This document shows positions 17,599-47,170 of a stretch of DNA of 64,000 bases, piece by piece. Every line of letters begins with the position of its first letter. Position 1 is the stretch's first letter. This stretch comes from Chroococcidiopsis sp. TS-821 (GTDB lineage Bacteria; Cyanobacteriota; Cyanobacteriia; Cyanobacteriales; Chroococcidiopsidaceae): NCBI RefSeq assembly GCF_002939305.1, contig NZ_MVDI01000007.1:186001-250000 (forward strand). Direction: 5' to 3'. The notes beneath the pieces are model-generated. The model ran no database searches, had not been told where the DNA came from, and saw nothing but the letters and a program-made list of their open reading frames with translations. The position numbers were made by a program, and so were the translations under genes.

Positions 17599-17943
17599 GG
17601 GGCTGTAGCTCAGCAGGATAGAGCGAGCGCCTCCTGATATATCGGGCATCATAAGGGAAACCTTATGTATGAATGCGGTCAAAGTCGGTGAATCCTAAAG
17701 AGCTAGCTGTAGTTGTTGGCATCTATGGAAACACCGAGCCAAGCCCAATGTGTTAGATTCGCGGCTTTAGCTTTGAGATTGCTCTCAATCTAAAATGATG
17801 CGAATCAAACAAGGGAAGGTGTAGAGACTAGACGATCGCCACCTACGAGCTTTTCAGCTTATGGTGAAGGTATAGTCCAGAGAGTGAGGAAACTCACACA
17901 AATCTGAAGCGCTAGGTCGCCGGTTCGAATCTGGCCAGTCCCG
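17599..17943 (+). tRNA. trnR-CCU: tRNA-Arg (CCU) interrupted by a group I intron
   Basis: The 5' exon (17599-17635, 37 nt) runs from the acceptor strand GGGGCTG through D arm GCTC/GAGC to the anticodon loop CTCCT. The 3' exon (17907-17943, 37 nt) gives AAGCGCT, T arm GCCGGTTCGAATCTGGC and acceptor CAGTCCC plus discriminator G. Joining them restores a 74-nt tRNA with anticodon stem AGCGC/GCGCT and loop CTCCTAA, anticodon CCU. No CCA is encoded. It reads the rare arginine codon AGG. Confidence 0.93.
17636..17906 (+). ncRNA. Group I intron in the tRNA-Arg anticodon loop
   Basis: 271 nt with no room for a homing endonuclease. The exon ends in U and the intron ends in G, as group I splicing requires. 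P1 can form between the exon CCU and GGG at about 17645-17647, giving the U-G wobble at the splice site. P2 is CATAAGG-GAAA-CCTTATG. Core elements GAGACTAGACG (R-like) and AAGGTATAGTCC (S-like) are present, and a GTGAG-GAAA-CTCAC hairpin (P9) lies just before the 3' splice site. It resembles the small self-splicing introns known in bacterial tRNA anticodon loops. Confidence 0.9.
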
Positions 17944-41995: not shown

Positions 41996-42676
41996 CTACT
42001 TATCTACTAAAGACCCATCTTCCATGTAAAGAATGCGATCGGCAATATCTAAAATGCGGTTATCGTGGGTAACAAGTAAAATTGTGGAACCTTGTTCTTT
42101 AACTAACGTTTGCATAATTTCGACAACATCGCGCCCAGATTTTTTATCAAGTGCGGCGGTAGGTTCATCGGCTAAAACAATTTTTGGATAACTAATTAAA
42201 GCCCTTGCGATCGCAACTCTTTGCTTTTGTCCTCCTGATAGCTTTTCTGGATAATAATCAACGCGATCGCCTAAACCCACAGCCTCTAACATAGCGATCG
42301 CTTTTGCATCTAAATCTTGATTGAACATGTCATCGTGCAATTCTAAAGACATCCGCACGTTTTGTTTTGCGGTGAGAAATGTCATTAAATTGTGTGCTTG
42401 AAAAATATAACCAATGTTGCGTCGAATCTCAATTAATTGCCGTTTGTGAGCGCCACACATTTCTTGATTGAGAATTTTTAAACTACCTTCTTGGGCAGAT
42501 CTTAGTCCACCCATGAGTGATAGTAAAGTTGTTTTACCAGAACCCGAGGGTCCTGTCATTATCACAATTTCGCCTGCTTGAATTTCTAAGTTGATGTTAG
42601 ATAAAACTTGCTTGCGTAGTGTTCCTTCACCAAAGTAATGGTTGAGGTTTTTGATGGAGATGACGGGGGGGTGCAT
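41996..42676 (-). CDS. devA: ABC transporter ATP-binding protein, DevA-like
   Basis: 226 aa ATPase. Walker A GPSGSGKTT, Q loop FQAHNLM, signature LSGGQKQRVAIARAL and Walker B IVLADEPTAALD are all present; the sequence is of the MacB/LolD/DevA type. With DevB and DevC it would power export across the envelope (glycolipid export in heterocyst formers). ATG 42676 is chosen because the conserved fold begins there; the longer frame is translated repeat DNA. It is separated from devC by 560 nt that hold an antisense S23 gene. Confidence 0.9.
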   Translation of the reverse strand: MHPPVISIKNLNHYFGEGTLRKQVLSNINLEIQAGEIVIMTGPSGSGKTTLLSLMGGLRSAQEGSLKILNQEMCGAHKRQLIEIRRNIGYIFQAHNLMTFLTAKQNVRMSLELHDDMFNQDLDAKAIAMLEAVGLGDRVDYYPEKLSGGQKQRVAIARALISYPKIVLADEPTAALDKKSGRDVVEIMQTLVKEQGSTILLVTHDNRILDIADRILYMEDGSLVDK

Positions 42677-42709
42677 GGTAATGGGTAATTGGTAATGGGT
42701 AATGGGAAT
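42676..42709. repeat. GGTAATGG heptamer-type repeat upstream of devA
   Basis: GGTAATGGGTAATTGGTAAT and two more units, immediately upstream of the devA start codon. Confidence 0.8.
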
Positions 42710-42738
42710 AATTAGTGTGAAGGTTGTGGGGCTTATGG

Positions 42739-43101
42739 ATGGGAAGACCTGATTTTGAGAGTTTGGATGTGTATAGGTTGGCTGAAAGTTTGGCAAATGA
42801 AGTTTGGCAAGTTGTTAAACATTGGGACATTTTTGCTAAAGATACTGTAGGGAAACAAATCGTCAGATCAGCAGATAGTATTTGTGCCAATATTGCTGAG
42901 GGACGTGGTCGTTACAACTTTAAAGACAATCAACGATTTATTAAAATTGCCAGAGGTTCACTCTACGAAACTATTAGTTGGTTGCGATTGGCATATGCTA
43001 GACAATTAATTAATAGCGAACAGTCACTTAAGCTAAAGCAAATCATTGATGAACTATCGCCGAAATTAAATGCGTATTTGAGGTCATTAGATAATAGGTA
43101 A
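42739..43101 (+). CDS. Four-helix-bundle protein (S23 / 23S rRNA IVS protein family)
   Basis: 120 aa. FESLDVYRLAESLANEVWQVV, GKQIVRSADSICANIAEGRGR, IKIARGSLYETISWLRLAY and ELSPKLNAYLRSL match the S23 family, a left-handed four-helix bundle that forms pentamers and was first found inside rRNA intervening sequences. Many cyanobacteria carry free-standing copies; partners are unknown. ATG 42739 matches the family start (RPDFESL). It lies antisense between devC and devA and is flanked on both sides by the heptamer repeats, suggesting insertion as a unit. Confidence 0.9.
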   Translation: MGRPDFESLDVYRLAESLANEVWQVVKHWDIFAKDTVGKQIVRSADSICANIAEGRGRYNFKDNQRFIKIARGSLYETISWLRLAYARQLINSEQSLKLKQIIDELSPKLNAYLRSLDNR

Positions 43102-43120
43102 TAGGTGATGGGTAATGGGA
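43093..43120. repeat. GGTAATAGG heptamer-type repeat
   Basis: ATAATAGGTAATAGGTGATG and a further unit, starting at the stop codon of the S23 gene. Confidence 0.75.
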
Positions 43121-43140
43121 AATTCTTAATCGGTTTTTTT

Positions 43141-43170
43141 CCAATAACCAACGATCAGTTACCAGTTACG
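43141..43170. repeat. CCAATAACC / CAGTTACC heptamer-type repeat
   Basis: CCAATAACCAACGATCAGTT followed by ACCAGTTACG, inverted relative to the repeat at 43093-43120. Confidence 0.7.
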
Positions 43171-43208
43171 CTTAAAATACATCAGCAGGATTAGCAGCTT
43201 GTTTTCTT

Positions 43209-43241
43209 CCAATTACCGATTACCAGTTACCAATTACCCCC
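43209..43241. repeat. CCAATTACC heptamer-type repeat at the devC 3' end
   Basis: CCAATTACCGATTACCAGTT and two more units; the array touches the devC stop codon. Confidence 0.8.
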
Positions 43242-44401
43242 TAAAACACGTCAGCAGGATCGGCGGATTGGAGTTTACGCATGGCGATCGCACCGGAAAC
43301 ACCGCACATAATAATTGTGAGTAGTAACACAAAGGCGGCGCGTTCTAGCTTCATTGCAATTGGTAGCAACGTCGCCATGTATGTGATTTGATAAAGTCCT
43401 ACCGATAAGAGGAAACCAGGAATAAAACCTAGAAAAGCTAAAAGTAAAGCTTCTTGCATTAATACAGTGAGTAAGTAGCGATCGCTGTATCCCATCGCTT
43501 TTAATGTCGCGTACTCTGGTAAGTGGTCGGAAACGTCGGAATACAGAATTTGGTAAACAATCACAATCCCAACAATAAACCCGACGACTACACCCATCCC
43601 AAAAATAAAGCCGATACCGCCACTTTCCCAGTAGTTAATTTCAATTTGCGCAAATTCTTCTGGTGTGAGTACGTTAACATCATCAGGTAATCCTGCTTGC
43701 AGTTGGGCTTGTACAGTTTGTGGATCGACTCCAGGTTGTAGCTGAATCAACCCGACATTGATTTGATTTGGTTGGCGTTGGGGAAATAGCTTTAAGAAAG
43801 TCGAATCACTGGTGATAATATTGCCATCTGCACCAAAAGACGCACCTAGCGTGAATAAGCCTATAGTTTGAACAGTTTGATCGTTCACTTGTGCGGTGAG
43901 GGTTCCTTGTTGCAGTAAATCTGCAATTGGTCCATACTCAGGACGCGATGCGCGATCGAAGAGAACGCGATCGAGTTGTTTTAACTGGTCTAGATAAGGG
44001 TTAACTTCGGGAAAATCAAACGCTGGATTTGCTGGATCGATACCCCAGACTAAAATACCTCGATTCATTAACGTTTCTGGGCTACGCCACTGCGCGGTAT
44101 CGACATACAAAGAACGCACTGACGCAACTCCGTCGTAGGATAAGGTTTGGAGTAATCGCTCTCTAGGAAAGTTTTTGACGTAAAATAACGTTTGAAACTG
44201 GGGATTGATTAAGACAAGATCTGCTTGTAGGTTTTGATGCGATTTTGTTGCAGAATCGAATAGTGAATCGAGTAATCCCAGCTGTACGAAGATCAGCATA
44301 TCTGCAAAGCCTATTCCAGCTAATGCTACTAGTAGGCGAGTTTTTTCTTTAAGGAGTTGTCGCCATGCTAAGGGTGTACGGCGCAGCCATTTGGGAAGCA
44401 T
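43241..44401 (-). CDS. devC: ABC transporter permease, DevC-like
   Basis: 386 aa. The N-terminal helix (LLVALAGIGFADMLIFVQLGLLDSLF) is followed by a large periplasmic domain (about 45-260) and three C-terminal helices (IGFIFGMGVVVGFIVGIVIVYQ; FLGFIPGFLLSVGLY; FVLLLTIIMCGVSGAIA), the FtsX/MacB-type layout. ATG 44401 (MLPKWLRRTPLAW) matches DevC N termini; the longer frame reads repeat DNA. It acts with DevB and DevA in tripartite export through TolC-type channels. The GNAT gene intervenes between it and devB. Confidence 0.9.
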   Translation of the reverse strand: MLPKWLRRTPLAWRQLLKEKTRLLVALAGIGFADMLIFVQLGLLDSLFDSATKSHQNLQADLVLINPQFQTLFYVKNFPRERLLQTLSYDGVASVRSLYVDTAQWRSPETLMNRGILVWGIDPANPAFDFPEVNPYLDQLKQLDRVLFDRASRPEYGPIADLLQQGTLTAQVNDQTVQTIGLFTLGASFGADGNIITSDSTFLKLFPQRQPNQINVGLIQLQPGVDPQTVQAQLQAGLPDDVNVLTPEEFAQIEINYWESGGIGFIFGMGVVVGFIVGIVIVYQILYSDVSDHLPEYATLKAMGYSDRYLLTVLMQEALLLAFLGFIPGFLLSVGLYQITYMATLLPIAMKLERAAFVLLLTIIMCGVSGAIAMRKLQSADPADVF

Positions 44402-44414
44402 AGTGATACCATTT

Positions 44415-44503
44415 GGGTGATGGGTAATGGGTAATAGGTGATAGGTAATGGGTAATAGATATTCTTTTACCAATTCCCAATTACCAATGACCCGTTACCT
44501 ATT
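44415..44503. repeat. Composite inverted heptamer repeat between devC and GNAT genes
   Basis: A left arm of GGTAAT-type units (GGGTAATGGGTAATAGGTGA onward), a centre AGATATTCTTT, and a right arm of ATTACC-type units (CCAATTACCAATGACCCGTT). The 25 nt at 44443-44467 recur exactly at 46374-46398. The arms are complementary and could fold on each other. Confidence 0.85.
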
Positions 44504-45113
44504 GTGGTTCTCTATTGAGTGTCCAGTATGGAATGTTTATTTCAGCGAATGTACCCGATCGCAGTACTTTAAACCCTTGTCTTTGGTAGAAGCGTGCGCC
44601 TCTTTCAGTGAAGGTTTCGAGATAGCAAGGGAGTTGTTCGCGATCTGCTTGTTTAAGAATTGGTTGTAGGAGTAGACTACCAACTCCTTGACTCTGATAC
44701 GCTGGTGCAACTCCTAGCATATTTAGATACCAATGTTTTTCTGGTAGGTCTTGTTGGTGGTATTCTTCAATCTTGGAGTAGAAGGCGATGAGTTGTCCGA
44801 ATCTGTCGAACCGTAGTTTGGGTGGAATTCTATACAATCCAGATAGAAGTAATCGTAAATGATTAAATGGGTATTTTCCTGGTGGTAGCCATACTGCAAT
44901 TCCTTTTATATCGTCTTGCGTTGTGTAGATGTGGTTGTAACGCAAGCTATAACGTAAGGTTGTCTTTGCAAGCCAGTTTATAAGATCGCGTTTTGCGGGT
45001 TCGTCTGCTAACGCAAAATAATTGGACATCGGATCGTTGTTAAATGCTTGTGCTAGAACTTCACTTGCTGCATCAATTTGCGATCGCTTTAACTTTACTA
45101 CTTGTATACTCAT
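44499..45113 (-). CDS. GNAT-family N-acetyltransferase
   Basis: 204 aa. The acetyl-CoA motif is LNMLGVAPAYQSQGVGSLLL (motif A, QxxGxG variant), followed by PCYLETFTERGARFYQRQGF (motif B). The N-terminal half has a conserved AFNNDPMSNYF and GIAVWLPPG, as in the family related to small-molecule or peptide acetylation. ATG 45113 has AGGAG seven bases upstream. It lies between devB and devC on the same strand; its role in the exporter, if any, is unknown. Confidence 0.88.
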   Translation of the reverse strand: MSIQVVKLKRSQIDAASEVLAQAFNNDPMSNYFALADEPAKRDLINWLAKTTLRYSLRYNHIYTTQDDIKGIAVWLPPGKYPFNHLRLLLSGLYRIPPKLRFDRFGQLIAFYSKIEEYHQQDLPEKHWYLNMLGVAPAYQSQGVGSLLLQPILKQADREQLPCYLETFTERGARFYQRQGFKVLRSGTFAEINIPYWTLNREPQ

Positions 45114-45138
45114 GATTTTTCTCCTGATATCGCACATT

Positions 45139-45152
45139 CGTTATAAATAACG
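45139..45152. promoter_or_regulatory. Perfect palindrome between devB and the GNAT gene
   Basis: CGTTATAAATAACG, a 14-bp perfect palindrome that starts right after the devB stop codon. It may be an operator for the upstream TetR protein or a short 3' hairpin. Confidence 0.4.
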
Positions 45153-46325
45153 CTAAAGATCAATTGCTGTTTGTACTTGTAAGTTGGTTAAACCTGCGAC
45201 TCGTTGACTATCTGTAGGATTTAAGCGAATTTTGACTTCAACAACGCGGCGGTCGAGGTTTTCGCCTGGTTGATTGCTGAAAACGTTTTGGCGATCGACT
45301 TGTAAACCTACGTGCGATACAACTCCTTGCAATTCGCCGTTAATTGCTTCGCCGGTTACGGTTGCGGTTTGTCCTCGCTTGACTTTATTGATGTCAGTTT
45401 GGTATATTTCTGCTATCACTAACATGGTATCTGTTTGCGCTAAATCGGCAATTCCCAAATCGCTAATTTTCTCGCCAACTCGCGAGTGAATTTTGAGAAT
45501 TTGTCCTGATTTTGGTGCTTTGATGTAGGCTTGGGCTAAATCAGTGCGGGCGCGGTTAACTGCTATAATTGCTTCTTCAACTTCACTTTGGGCGGCTTGG
45601 ATATCAACTGGGCGAACTTCCGAGATTTGATTTAAGGTAGCGCGGGCTTCTTGAAGTTGCGCTTGCAGTGATTCAATTGTTTTACTTTGCGTTTGTTGTG
45701 CTTCGTCAAGTTGCGCTTGCGCAGTCTCAGCAACTAGACGTTTGCTATCTAAACTTGATGCGGCAACTGCACCTTGTTGATACAACTGTTGAAAGCGATT
45801 ATACTCAGCATTAGCGTTACGTACTTCCGATCGCCTGCGCGCGATCGCCGCATTTTGGGAAGCAATTTCACCCGCAAGTTCAGCTTCGAGTCGCGTAATT
45901 GTTGCTTGCTGGGCTTGAATCTCACCTTGTTTTGCACCAGCTTTAACTTGCGCAAGTCGTGCTTGGGTAACTTTAACTTGTTGTTGCGCTTGTTGCAGTG
46001 CATCTTGCAGGCGATTTCTAGAATCTAAGATTGCTACAACTTGTCCCGCTTGCACTCTATCGCCTTCTTGCACGAGAATTTGAGAGATGCGATCGCCATC
46101 TAAGGCTAATGGTGCAGATAAGCGAATCACTTCACCTTCAGGTTCAATTCTTCCTAGCGCAGTGACTTTCTTAACAGTGGGAACTGTTGTTGTAGGTTGC
46201 GGTGTTTTTCTTTGTCCAAACTGCGAAATTCCGTAATATGCAATCCCTCCACTAATCAGCGTTGCGACAACAATTAAGCCGATTAACTTGCGATTGGCTC
46301 GTTTAAAGAATAGCCCCAGCGCCAT
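45153..46325 (-). CDS. devB: Membrane fusion protein, DevB-like (HlyD family)
   Basis: 390 aa. One N-terminal membrane segment (LIGLIVVATLISGGIAYYG) is followed by the lipoyl/barrel start KVTALGRIEPEGEVIRLSAP, a long alpha-helical hairpin (about 115-240, rich in Gln/Ala coiled coil), the second lipoyl half YIKAPKSGQILKIHSRVGE and the beta-barrel. It links the DevCA pump to an outer-membrane channel. ATG 46325 is chosen since upstream codons are repeat DNA. The TetR gene lies 90 nt upstream. Confidence 0.92.
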   Translation of the reverse strand: MALGLFFKRANRKLIGLIVVATLISGGIAYYGISQFGQRKTPQPTTTVPTVKKVTALGRIEPEGEVIRLSAPLALDGDRISQILVQEGDRVQAGQVVAILDSRNRLQDALQQAQQQVKVTQARLAQVKAGAKQGEIQAQQATITRLEAELAGEIASQNAAIARRRSEVRNANAEYNRFQQLYQQGAVAASSLDSKRLVAETAQAQLDEAQQTQSKTIESLQAQLQEARATLNQISEVRPVDIQAAQSEVEEAIIAVNRARTDLAQAYIKAPKSGQILKIHSRVGEKISDLGIADLAQTDTMLVIAEIYQTDINKVKRGQTATVTGEAINGELQGVVSHVGLQVDRQNVFSNQPGENLDRRVVEVKIRLNPTDSQRVAGLTNLQVQTAIDL

Positions 46326-46344
46326 TGATTTTTTCCTTTTTTGT

Positions 46345-46428
46345 TGGGTATTGGGGATTGGGTAATAGGTAATAGGTAATGGGTAATAGATATTCTTTGC
46401 GTCCCAATGACCAGTTACCAACTTTTAC
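46345..46428. repeat. Composite heptamer repeat between tetR and devB
   Basis: GGTATTGGGGATTGGGTAAT and further GGTAAT units, the centre AGATATTCTTT, then CCAATGACCAGTTACC. It shares 25 identical nt (46374-46398) with the element at 44443-44467. The right arm overlaps the last codons of the tetR gene. Confidence 0.85.
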
Positions 46429-46999
46429 GAGATGCTTCTTGCAAATAAAGCGTCAGCATCTTGTTCAACAATTGTGCTTGCTGATCGTACGCAACAACAT
46501 CGCCTTCAAATAACCGCACTACAATAACTCCTGTTGCTAAACACATGGCAAAGTTAACCACAGCCGGATCGTCAGTTCCTAACGCTTTGACAACAAACTC
46601 TCGATTTGACTTGTAGTTGCGCTTGAGGGTTTCGTTTGCCAAAATTTCCTCGCGATCTTGTTGTTGATAAAAATCACTCGTAATCAGAAATTGCTTGAAG
46701 AAATAATCTTCATTTTGGGCGGTGTAGTCAAAAATTGCTGTAATGCGCTCCTCCAAAGTATGAGTATTATTCAAGACAGCGTTCATACTTGCTGTATCTC
46801 GTTCATTTAATTCGTCATATAGCTGCCAAAACAAAGCTTGCTTACTAGGAAAGTAGTGATACAGCGTTCCGGTGGATACACCTATTTCTTTGGCAATTTG
46901 GCGCATGGTTACAGCACCATAGCCCTTGGTAGCAAATAAATCAAAGCATTTTGTCAGTAACTCTTTACGGTATTGGTCACGATCAACAATCTTAGGCAT
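46415..46999 (-). CDS. TetR-family transcriptional regulator
   Basis: 194 aa. The N-terminal helix-turn-helix is AVTMRQIAKEIGVSTGTLYHYF (about 30-51), preceded by the basic helix DQYRKELLTKCFDLFATKGYG. The C-terminal ligand domain is variable. It is the first gene of the unit that continues with devB, GNAT and devC, so it most likely controls this exporter. The last residues (EASRKSW) are encoded within the repeat array. Confidence 0.92.
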   Translation of the reverse strand: MPKIVDRDQYRKELLTKCFDLFATKGYGAVTMRQIAKEIGVSTGTLYHYFPSKQALFWQLYDELNERDTASMNAVLNNTHTLEERITAIFDYTAQNEDYFFKQFLITSDFYQQQDREEILANETLKRNYKSNREFVVKALGTDDPAVVNFAMCLATGVIVVRLFEGDVVAYDQQAQLLNKMLTLYLQEASRKSW

Positions 47000-47130
47000 A
47001 GAGTAATGAGCAAACCCCAGTCTTTTATCGGATCGGCATTGTATATTGACTTGTTGAAATATTTTATATCGAACGTTTGTTATAAGTCAAACCAAATAAG
47101 AACGGTTATTGTACGTGATTCCTTCAAGCA

Positions 47131-47170
47131 TTGACCCAATAATTACCAATTACCTATTCCCAATTACCAA
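47131..47170. repeat. CCAATAATTACC heptamer-type repeat upstream of tetR
   Basis: ACCCAATAATTACCAATTAC then CTATTCCCAATTACC. It lies between the nucleosidase-like gene and tetR. Confidence 0.75.

Follow-up and report, generated by a model that had tools for sequence, protein, structure and literature searches.

S23 genes framed by inverted heptad repeats: an element in the dev exporter locus of Chroococcidiopsis sp. TS-821 and its counterparts in other bacteria

The S23 element in the dev locus

We analyzed a stretch of 64,000 nt from Chroococcidiopsis sp. TS-821 (contig NZ_MVDI01000007.1, positions 186,001 to 250,000), called the window here and used for all coordinates, in which a gene of the S23 family (23S_rRNA_IVP, PF05635) lies inside a dev exporter locus. 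The genome bearing the window comprises 5.23 Mb in 72 contigs. On the minus strand the gene order is tetR, devB, GNAT, devC and devA, and between the last two lies S23, which is encoded on the plus strand in antisense orientation to the dev genes. This order, claimed in a preliminary description made from the sequence alone, was confirmed by profile matches. Homologues of the three exporter genes stand together: devB, the membrane fusion protein (45153–46325, TIGR02971, 355 bits), devC, the permease (43241–44401, TIGR01185, 504 bits), and devA, the ATPase of the ABC exporter (41996–42676, TIGR02982, 374 bits), accompanied by a tetR-type regulator (46415–46999, TetR_N, PF00440) and a GNAT acetyltransferase (44499–45113, Acetyltransf_7/1 profiles), all on the minus strand. 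S23 (42739–43101, plus strand) encodes 120 amino acids from an ATG at 42739, and its frame is also open from a TTG at 42724. Likely starts were taken from the open reading frames (ORFs), for devA the ATG at 42676, for devC at 44401, for devB at 46325 and for S23 at 42739. The S23 protein matches PF05635 with 105 bits at a curated cut-off of 33.8, and a profile built from its relatives matches the solved structures 2RLD and 2GSC. S23 has been described as a pentamer (PMC4990558).

S23 is framed by tandem units of 7 nt. A repeat search located the left arm, (GGTAATN)n on the plus strand at 42677–42711, where it abuts the start codon of devA, and the right arm, the same unit in inverted orientation on the minus strand at 43204–43238, where it abuts the stop codon of devC. 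A weaker heptad hairpin without S23 (repeat family D8, ~43093–43170, alignment score only 14) is nested between S23 and the right arm. Left arm, S23, nested hairpin and right arm make up the S23 element (42677–43238, plus strand), which was delimited by its flanks and by its presence, absence or decay to a relic in relatives. Compared as inverted repeats the flanks reach a score of 45, the maximum in 100 shuffles being 29, and the predicted fold of the element has a z of −3.18, with none of 100 shuffles as good. In the window element the flanks of the S23 ORF are complementary and can form a stem, and the arms, being tandem 7-nt units, are at the same time heptameric short tandemly repeated repetitive sequences (STRR) or simple sequence repeats (SSR). 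The repeats are more than chance would give: in the genome the heptad pattern GGTAATNGGTAATNGGTAAT was counted 82 times in comparison to 6 for a control with the pattern reversed. The flank match supports the earlier suggestion that S23 and its flanking repeats form one cassette, and the pattern extends far past the dev locus.

Heptads without S23 are found at further junctions of the locus. A hairpin lies between GNAT and devC (44420–44459 and 44463–44502, inverted match score 35), another, with an alignment score of only 15, between devB and tetR (~46343–46422), and a repeat search found a heptad array upstream of tetR (47141–47168, minus strand). No heptad repeats were found at the devB–GNAT junction, either in the window or in five relatives, so that the repeats, first described for every junction, occupy most of them. 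Beside the S23 element the 3' end of devC is duplicated (43173–43191 and 43242–43260), a small duplication involving heptads; the short duplicate comes after the nested hairpin.

Inverted flanks of S23 genes

For each S23 locus we determined a flank score: the 300 bp preceding the S23 domain were aligned locally with the reverse-complemented 300 bp following it, and the best match was scored. Three sets of loci were scored. The 48 loci from genomes of the family are all places found after merging split matches (L005 with L004, for example; L081 was counted once with L050) and include several copies of one site, so that they do not represent 48 independent events; a score of at least 30 was reached by 36 of them. 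In the wider phylum 25 of 29 loci reached this score, and in a multi-phylum set it was reached by 63 of 80, these being the top 80 among at least 591 confirmed matches to a single conserved peptide pattern and not a random sample. Shuffling gave similar counts. In the family 36/47 loci exceed the best of 100 shuffles (median score 44; L070, cut by a contig end, was excluded here and kept in the score count), and p<0.01 was obtained for 27/29 loci in the wider phylum and for 62/80 multi-phylum loci (in the multi-phylum set floor 1/201, median score 41; flanks down to ~60 bp were retained in this count and in the fixed-score count). The multi-phylum loci include Proteobacteria, Bacteroidota, Planctomycetes, Clostridia, Acidobacteria, Chloroflexi and Patescibacteria.

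Control genes rarely showed such flanks. We scored the best-scoring 30 places, not random ones, of each of three families in the family genomes and dropped loci cut by contig ends (5 Y1, 2 ParE, 4 Uma2). Scores of at least 30 were found for 0/26 Uma2, 0/28 ParE and 1/25 Y1_Tnp loci, in total 1/79, and the single match is not a heptad. Dummy slots placed within the S23 loci reached 30 in 0/229 and 1/99 cases (1/328 in total). Flanks paired across loci did so in 7/473 cases; in another set of such pairs the median was 19 and the 95th percentile 32. Chance or base composition as the cause of the matching flanks is ruled out by shuffles, cross-locus pairs, dummy slots and the three control families.

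The arms of the 124 positive loci have a period of 7 in 87 cases, of 8 in 24, of 9 in 5 and of 10 in one; in 7 the period was unclear. G exceeds C in the 5' arm of 115. Elements have a median length of 470–480 bp and typically span about 470–570 bp. The repeat unit varies from element to element, while both arms of one element share it; the genome's other S23 genes are likewise flanked by inverted short repeats whose units differ. Under a stricter rule, by which a clean array of period 7 must have its inverted partner no more than 600 bp away, 14/47 family S23 loci (42 kb) were positive vs two pairs in 800 kb of background drawn from nine genomes. In two of these nine, G003 and G013, arrays of period 7 without S23 are common, with 30 and 29 per 100 kb, respectively. 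The anatomy of the S23 element is well supported, and the association of S23 with heptads is strong, general and specific. An S23 element with unusually long arms of mixed units (score 139) was seen at L289 in G022.

The dev site in relatives

A search at E 1e-100 detected DevC in 33 of 40 genomes, the window's own genome counted, and 18 dev regions of relatives were fetched. In 11 of these 18 loci a GNAT gene separates devB from devC (one of the other seven is a short contig), and it is therefore a regular operon member in this group. Its earlier description as an interrupting insert is not borne out.

S23 behaves as an insert that is absent in some relatives. Between devC and devA it is found antisense in G010 and G009, as in the window, and sense in G003. 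In G004 and G014 the 5' end of S23 persists as a relic (scores of 80–98 vs a maximum of 34–40 in 500 shuffles), and in G006 and G013 a short gap remains at this place. Order and repeats are accordingly not common to all relatives, and G001 and G002, which belong to the same genus, carry an unrelated gene of 217–231 amino acids, which we take to resemble TMEM175/DUF1211 proteins. In G005 the place is taken by a gene of 228 amino acids, presumably similar to LysE-like exporters. With an S23 element, the G001/G002 gene and the G005 gene at the same junction (L036, L038, L045), the devC–devA junction appears to be an insertion hot spot.

In a tree of 46 S23 proteins the dev-site copies of G000, G010, G003 and G009 form one clade (100/99), as do the four copies at the usp site (100/99). 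Since the dev-site S23s of four genomes form one clade and two relatives keep a relic, S23 at this site is an old insert. The simplest reading is that S23 inserted here once, long ago, and was then inherited vertically, being lost in several lineages and inverted once between the arms. It is highly improbable that S23 and GNAT entered an intact dev operon of this strain recently as cassettes: the absence of S23 at the dev site of some close relatives, the two of the same genus included, could suggest such an event, but the old clade, the relics and the GNAT gene in 11 of 18 loci led us to reject it.

S23 is conserved as a protein. The ratio of nonsynonymous to synonymous substitution rates (dN/dS) is 0.06–0.18 in 8 of 9 S23 pairs, one of which (L002/L079) is not from a shared site, and 0.63 in the remaining pair; for the window S23 and the G010 dev-site copy it is 0.06. 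Judged by these ratios S23 is under purifying selection.

Shared sites, empty sites and arms

A second shared site was compared using 30 loci less those sorting between G013 and G024. An S23 element occupies the gap between hemE and the next gene in at least eight genomes, the second arm of the G004 copy being cut off by the contig end. In all seven elements with both arms readable the arms agree, and the units differ between genomes. Almost no space separates hemE from the next gene in G005, G008 and G012, and in G029 a heptad hairpin without S23 is found. Flanks beyond the arms confirm the hemE and usp sites as shared. The eight hemE-site copies lie on one branch of the tree (99/97), which is not an exclusive clade: three S23s from other sites are nested in it at weak forks, the bootstrap of the tree being not fully settled. 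This nesting would fit movement or duplication.

One element of G003 is entirely missing in G013, arms included, and the joined flanks are 88% identical. For a second site of G003, G013 and G009 show heptad hairpins that have no room for S23, and G012 lacks both hairpin and S23, so that a hairpin with S23 and one without it represent alternative states of a single site.

The arms change their unit together. At the hemE site we found CTAGTGR, GGAGYGA and GGGGTTA and at the dev site GGTAATN and GGTAGTT, with agreement of the arms within each element. In 31 of 35 same-site pairs the two arms of an element are more similar to each other than to the matching arms of the relative, a comparison biased by the choice of arms for their mutual match; 36 pairs were computed (32 with this result), and L002/L079 was excluded for its non-matching flanks. 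At L095 odd variants are common to both arms.

Copies in G149

In G149 we found 12 S23 copies with heptad arms (L306, L309–L317, L319, L320), located inside a conventional miniature inverted-repeat transposable element (MITE). The left terminal inverted repeat of the MITE is present in 12 copies and the right one in 10/12. Over the 5' part the copies are ~97–99% identical to L306. When the other 11 copies are aligned to L306, the alignments are interrupted at roughly the same position in S23, and the copies inspected contain a further insert there. Because these copies are carried by the MITE, we rejected S23-driven transposition in G149 and did not use them as support.

Interpretation and alternatives

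We consider it fairly probable that the S23 element is a hairpin element akin to the S23-coding intervening sequences (IVS) of 23S rRNA, standing free between protein genes. S23 would be the protein-coding core of a short hairpin element, in which a G-rich heptad array precedes S23 and its complement follows. In single-stranded form, as RNA or as DNA in replication or transfer, the arms could pair, with S23 in the loop. Such an element would have entered the devC–devA junction once, before these genera split, and would then have descended vertically, with a flip in one lineage, probably through recombination of one inverted arm with the other, and losses leaving a relic in others, its arms being rewritten together. 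The S23 pentamer may act on the hairpin of its own element by reading the 7-nt register and not the sequence, which would help the element to persist or insert, and the paired arms may template each other's repair. Binding of S23 to the arms, autonomous movement of the element and its route are steps that we infer.

Several observations weigh against this reading. No transposition was seen, the clean empty site in G013 shows no obvious target duplication by eye, and the only amplified set is the one inside the MITE of G149. The net charge of the S23 domain is near zero and is of no help for nucleic-acid binding. Charge, lack of observed transposition and MITE amplification count against a simple self-moving element, and since the S23s of the dev and usp sites look vertically inherited, movement would be rare at best. 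Mismatches of the G-U type between the arms number 64 on the S23 strand and 99 on the other strand, with 142 transversions, and show no preference for an RNA stem on the S23 strand, and the agreement of arms within elements is subject to the selection bias given above. Flank matches of at least 30 are missing at 33 of 157 S23 loci; of two archaeal loci one has a flank score of 29 and the other no match. Among genomes without an S23 match, G014 has heptad arrays and G007 has none in the sample. None of the 79 of 80 multi-phylum loci that were scanned lies inside rRNA.

An ordinary host gene could also account for part of the data, if the arms were the gene's own regulatory structure, such as an RNA hairpin or autoregulatory sites of the S23 pentamer, and the element were neither mobile nor selfish. 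Purifying selection on S23, the single clades at the dev and usp sites and the retention of the arms as inverted pairs are in agreement with this explanation, but S23 occurs at many unrelated sites, is missing without trace from one of them in a relative, has left decayed copies and relics, was inverted once and stands antisense inside operons, all of which looks more like an element than a conserved host gene, and we regard this explanation as unlikely. Slightly less likely again is a passive origin, in which heptads grow by replication slippage, template switching homogenizes the palindromes and S23 survives inside without acting. The abundance of S23-less period-7 arrays in G003 and G013 fits such an origin, as do the odd variants common to both arms of L095, which templated correction would give. 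It leaves unexplained why S23 but not Uma2, ParE or Y1_Tnp is found between inverted arrays, why inverted pairs are rare in the background and why the arrangement is spread across many phyla.

If instead S23 elements were passengers moved only by conventional transposases in trans, the G149 copies, with both fixed terminal repeats of the MITE present in 10 of 12, would be the expected picture. The outermost repeats of the dev, hemE and other family elements are heptad arms whose sequence differs between elements, and no shared terminal repeat was noticed in the family elements, although no systematic search was made; we hold this explanation to be improbable. With the exception of G149 the elements also do not show the fixed terminal repeat and target duplication typical of MITEs and insertion sequences, as their arm units differ and the one clean empty site has no obvious duplication. 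Returning to the IVS-like hairpin element, a broader version of this reading is possible though doubtful: S23/IVP would represent a pan-bacterial class of heptad-hairpin elements, its protein recognizing the 7-nt-periodic hairpin by register and not by sequence, and maintaining or writing it. The rRNA IVS would then form a branch of this class, and many heptanucleotide repeats between prokaryotic genes would be arms or footprints of its members.

Relation to known systems

S23-coding IVS of 23S rRNA are bordered by complementary sequences and are excised by RNase III. The IVS of Coxiella rRNA has 428 nt, and its complementary flanks close a loop that contains the S23p ORF; tandem heptamers, whose number varies between strains, lie just upstream of the ORF, and the RNase III site is at the first repeat (PMC4990558). 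Coxiella S23p is described in the same source as undergoing reductive evolution (PMC4990558). With the IVS of Leptospira, Coxiella and others the S23 elements share the ORF in the loop between complementary flanks, and with that of Coxiella the heptamers upstream of the ORF. They differ in lying between protein genes in either orientation and not in an rRNA helix, in having heptad arrays on both arms, and in the strong purifying selection on S23 in comparison to the reductive evolution of Coxiella S23p. We looked for an rRNA location and did not find it, and we therefore regard the element as of the IVS kind but not an IVS proper.

The accessible text of two studies describes intergenic tandem repeats of period 7 and treats their cause as not known (PMC4692102, PMC6344855), and heptameric repeats are stated in one of them to be generally not associated with mobile elements (PMC4692102). 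The arms resemble cyanobacterial STRR and heptameric SSRs as intergenic period-7 tandem repeats and differ from them in forming inverted pairs around one gene family. In the openly accessible literature, with most subscription papers outside this scope, we found no description of inverted heptad arrays on the two sides of S23 genes; as far as the available text goes, the nearest published precedent is the heptamer run of the Coxiella IVS (PMC4990558).

A likeness also exists to a palindrome family with its own gene. Repetitive extragenic palindromic (REP) sequences and REPINs, with the Y1 transposases called RAYT, occur as short palindromes with and without an associated gene in one genome. 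Palindromes with and without a gene likewise coexist in the genomes studied here, but S23 matches PF05635 and not Y1, and the arm sequence is not common to the elements. In the same genomes 24 of the 25 Y1 loci are without an inverted flank match.

PF05635 is reported to resemble Avd, the accessory protein of diversity-generating retroelements (PMC10053308). The S23 of L054 matches the Pfam family bAvd with 5e-7, under the bAvd cut-off, which is in line with a related protein family. No reverse transcriptase was present among the 8 proteins profiled around the locus; no search was aimed at a reverse transcriptase or a template repeat. The 23S rRNA IVP is named in a figure legend on CRISPR adaptation associations (PMC10910872). 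A link to defence systems was rejected after four S23 proteins compared with PADLOC gave one weak match (E 0.011).

The arms framing S23 are a candidate source for the common and unexplained 7-base repeats of bacterial genomes. The association offers a partner both for a gene of unknown function and for these repeats, two questions that can be tested at the bench, and it connects heptad hairpins with operon inserts and with the intervening sequences of rRNA.

Other features of the window

An operator-like motif, ~TTATAAC-AA-GT-CGATAT, is located upstream of tetR (47050–47110) and upstream of GNAT (45114–45152), and both copies are conserved in the six genomes compared. They probably represent TetR sites, which would give GNAT–devC a control of its own. 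No rRNA was found in the window. The only tRNA found is a tRNA-Leu(CAA) at 495–578, and an Rfam group I intron match at 17625–17899 lies barely over the threshold (51.4 vs 50 bits).

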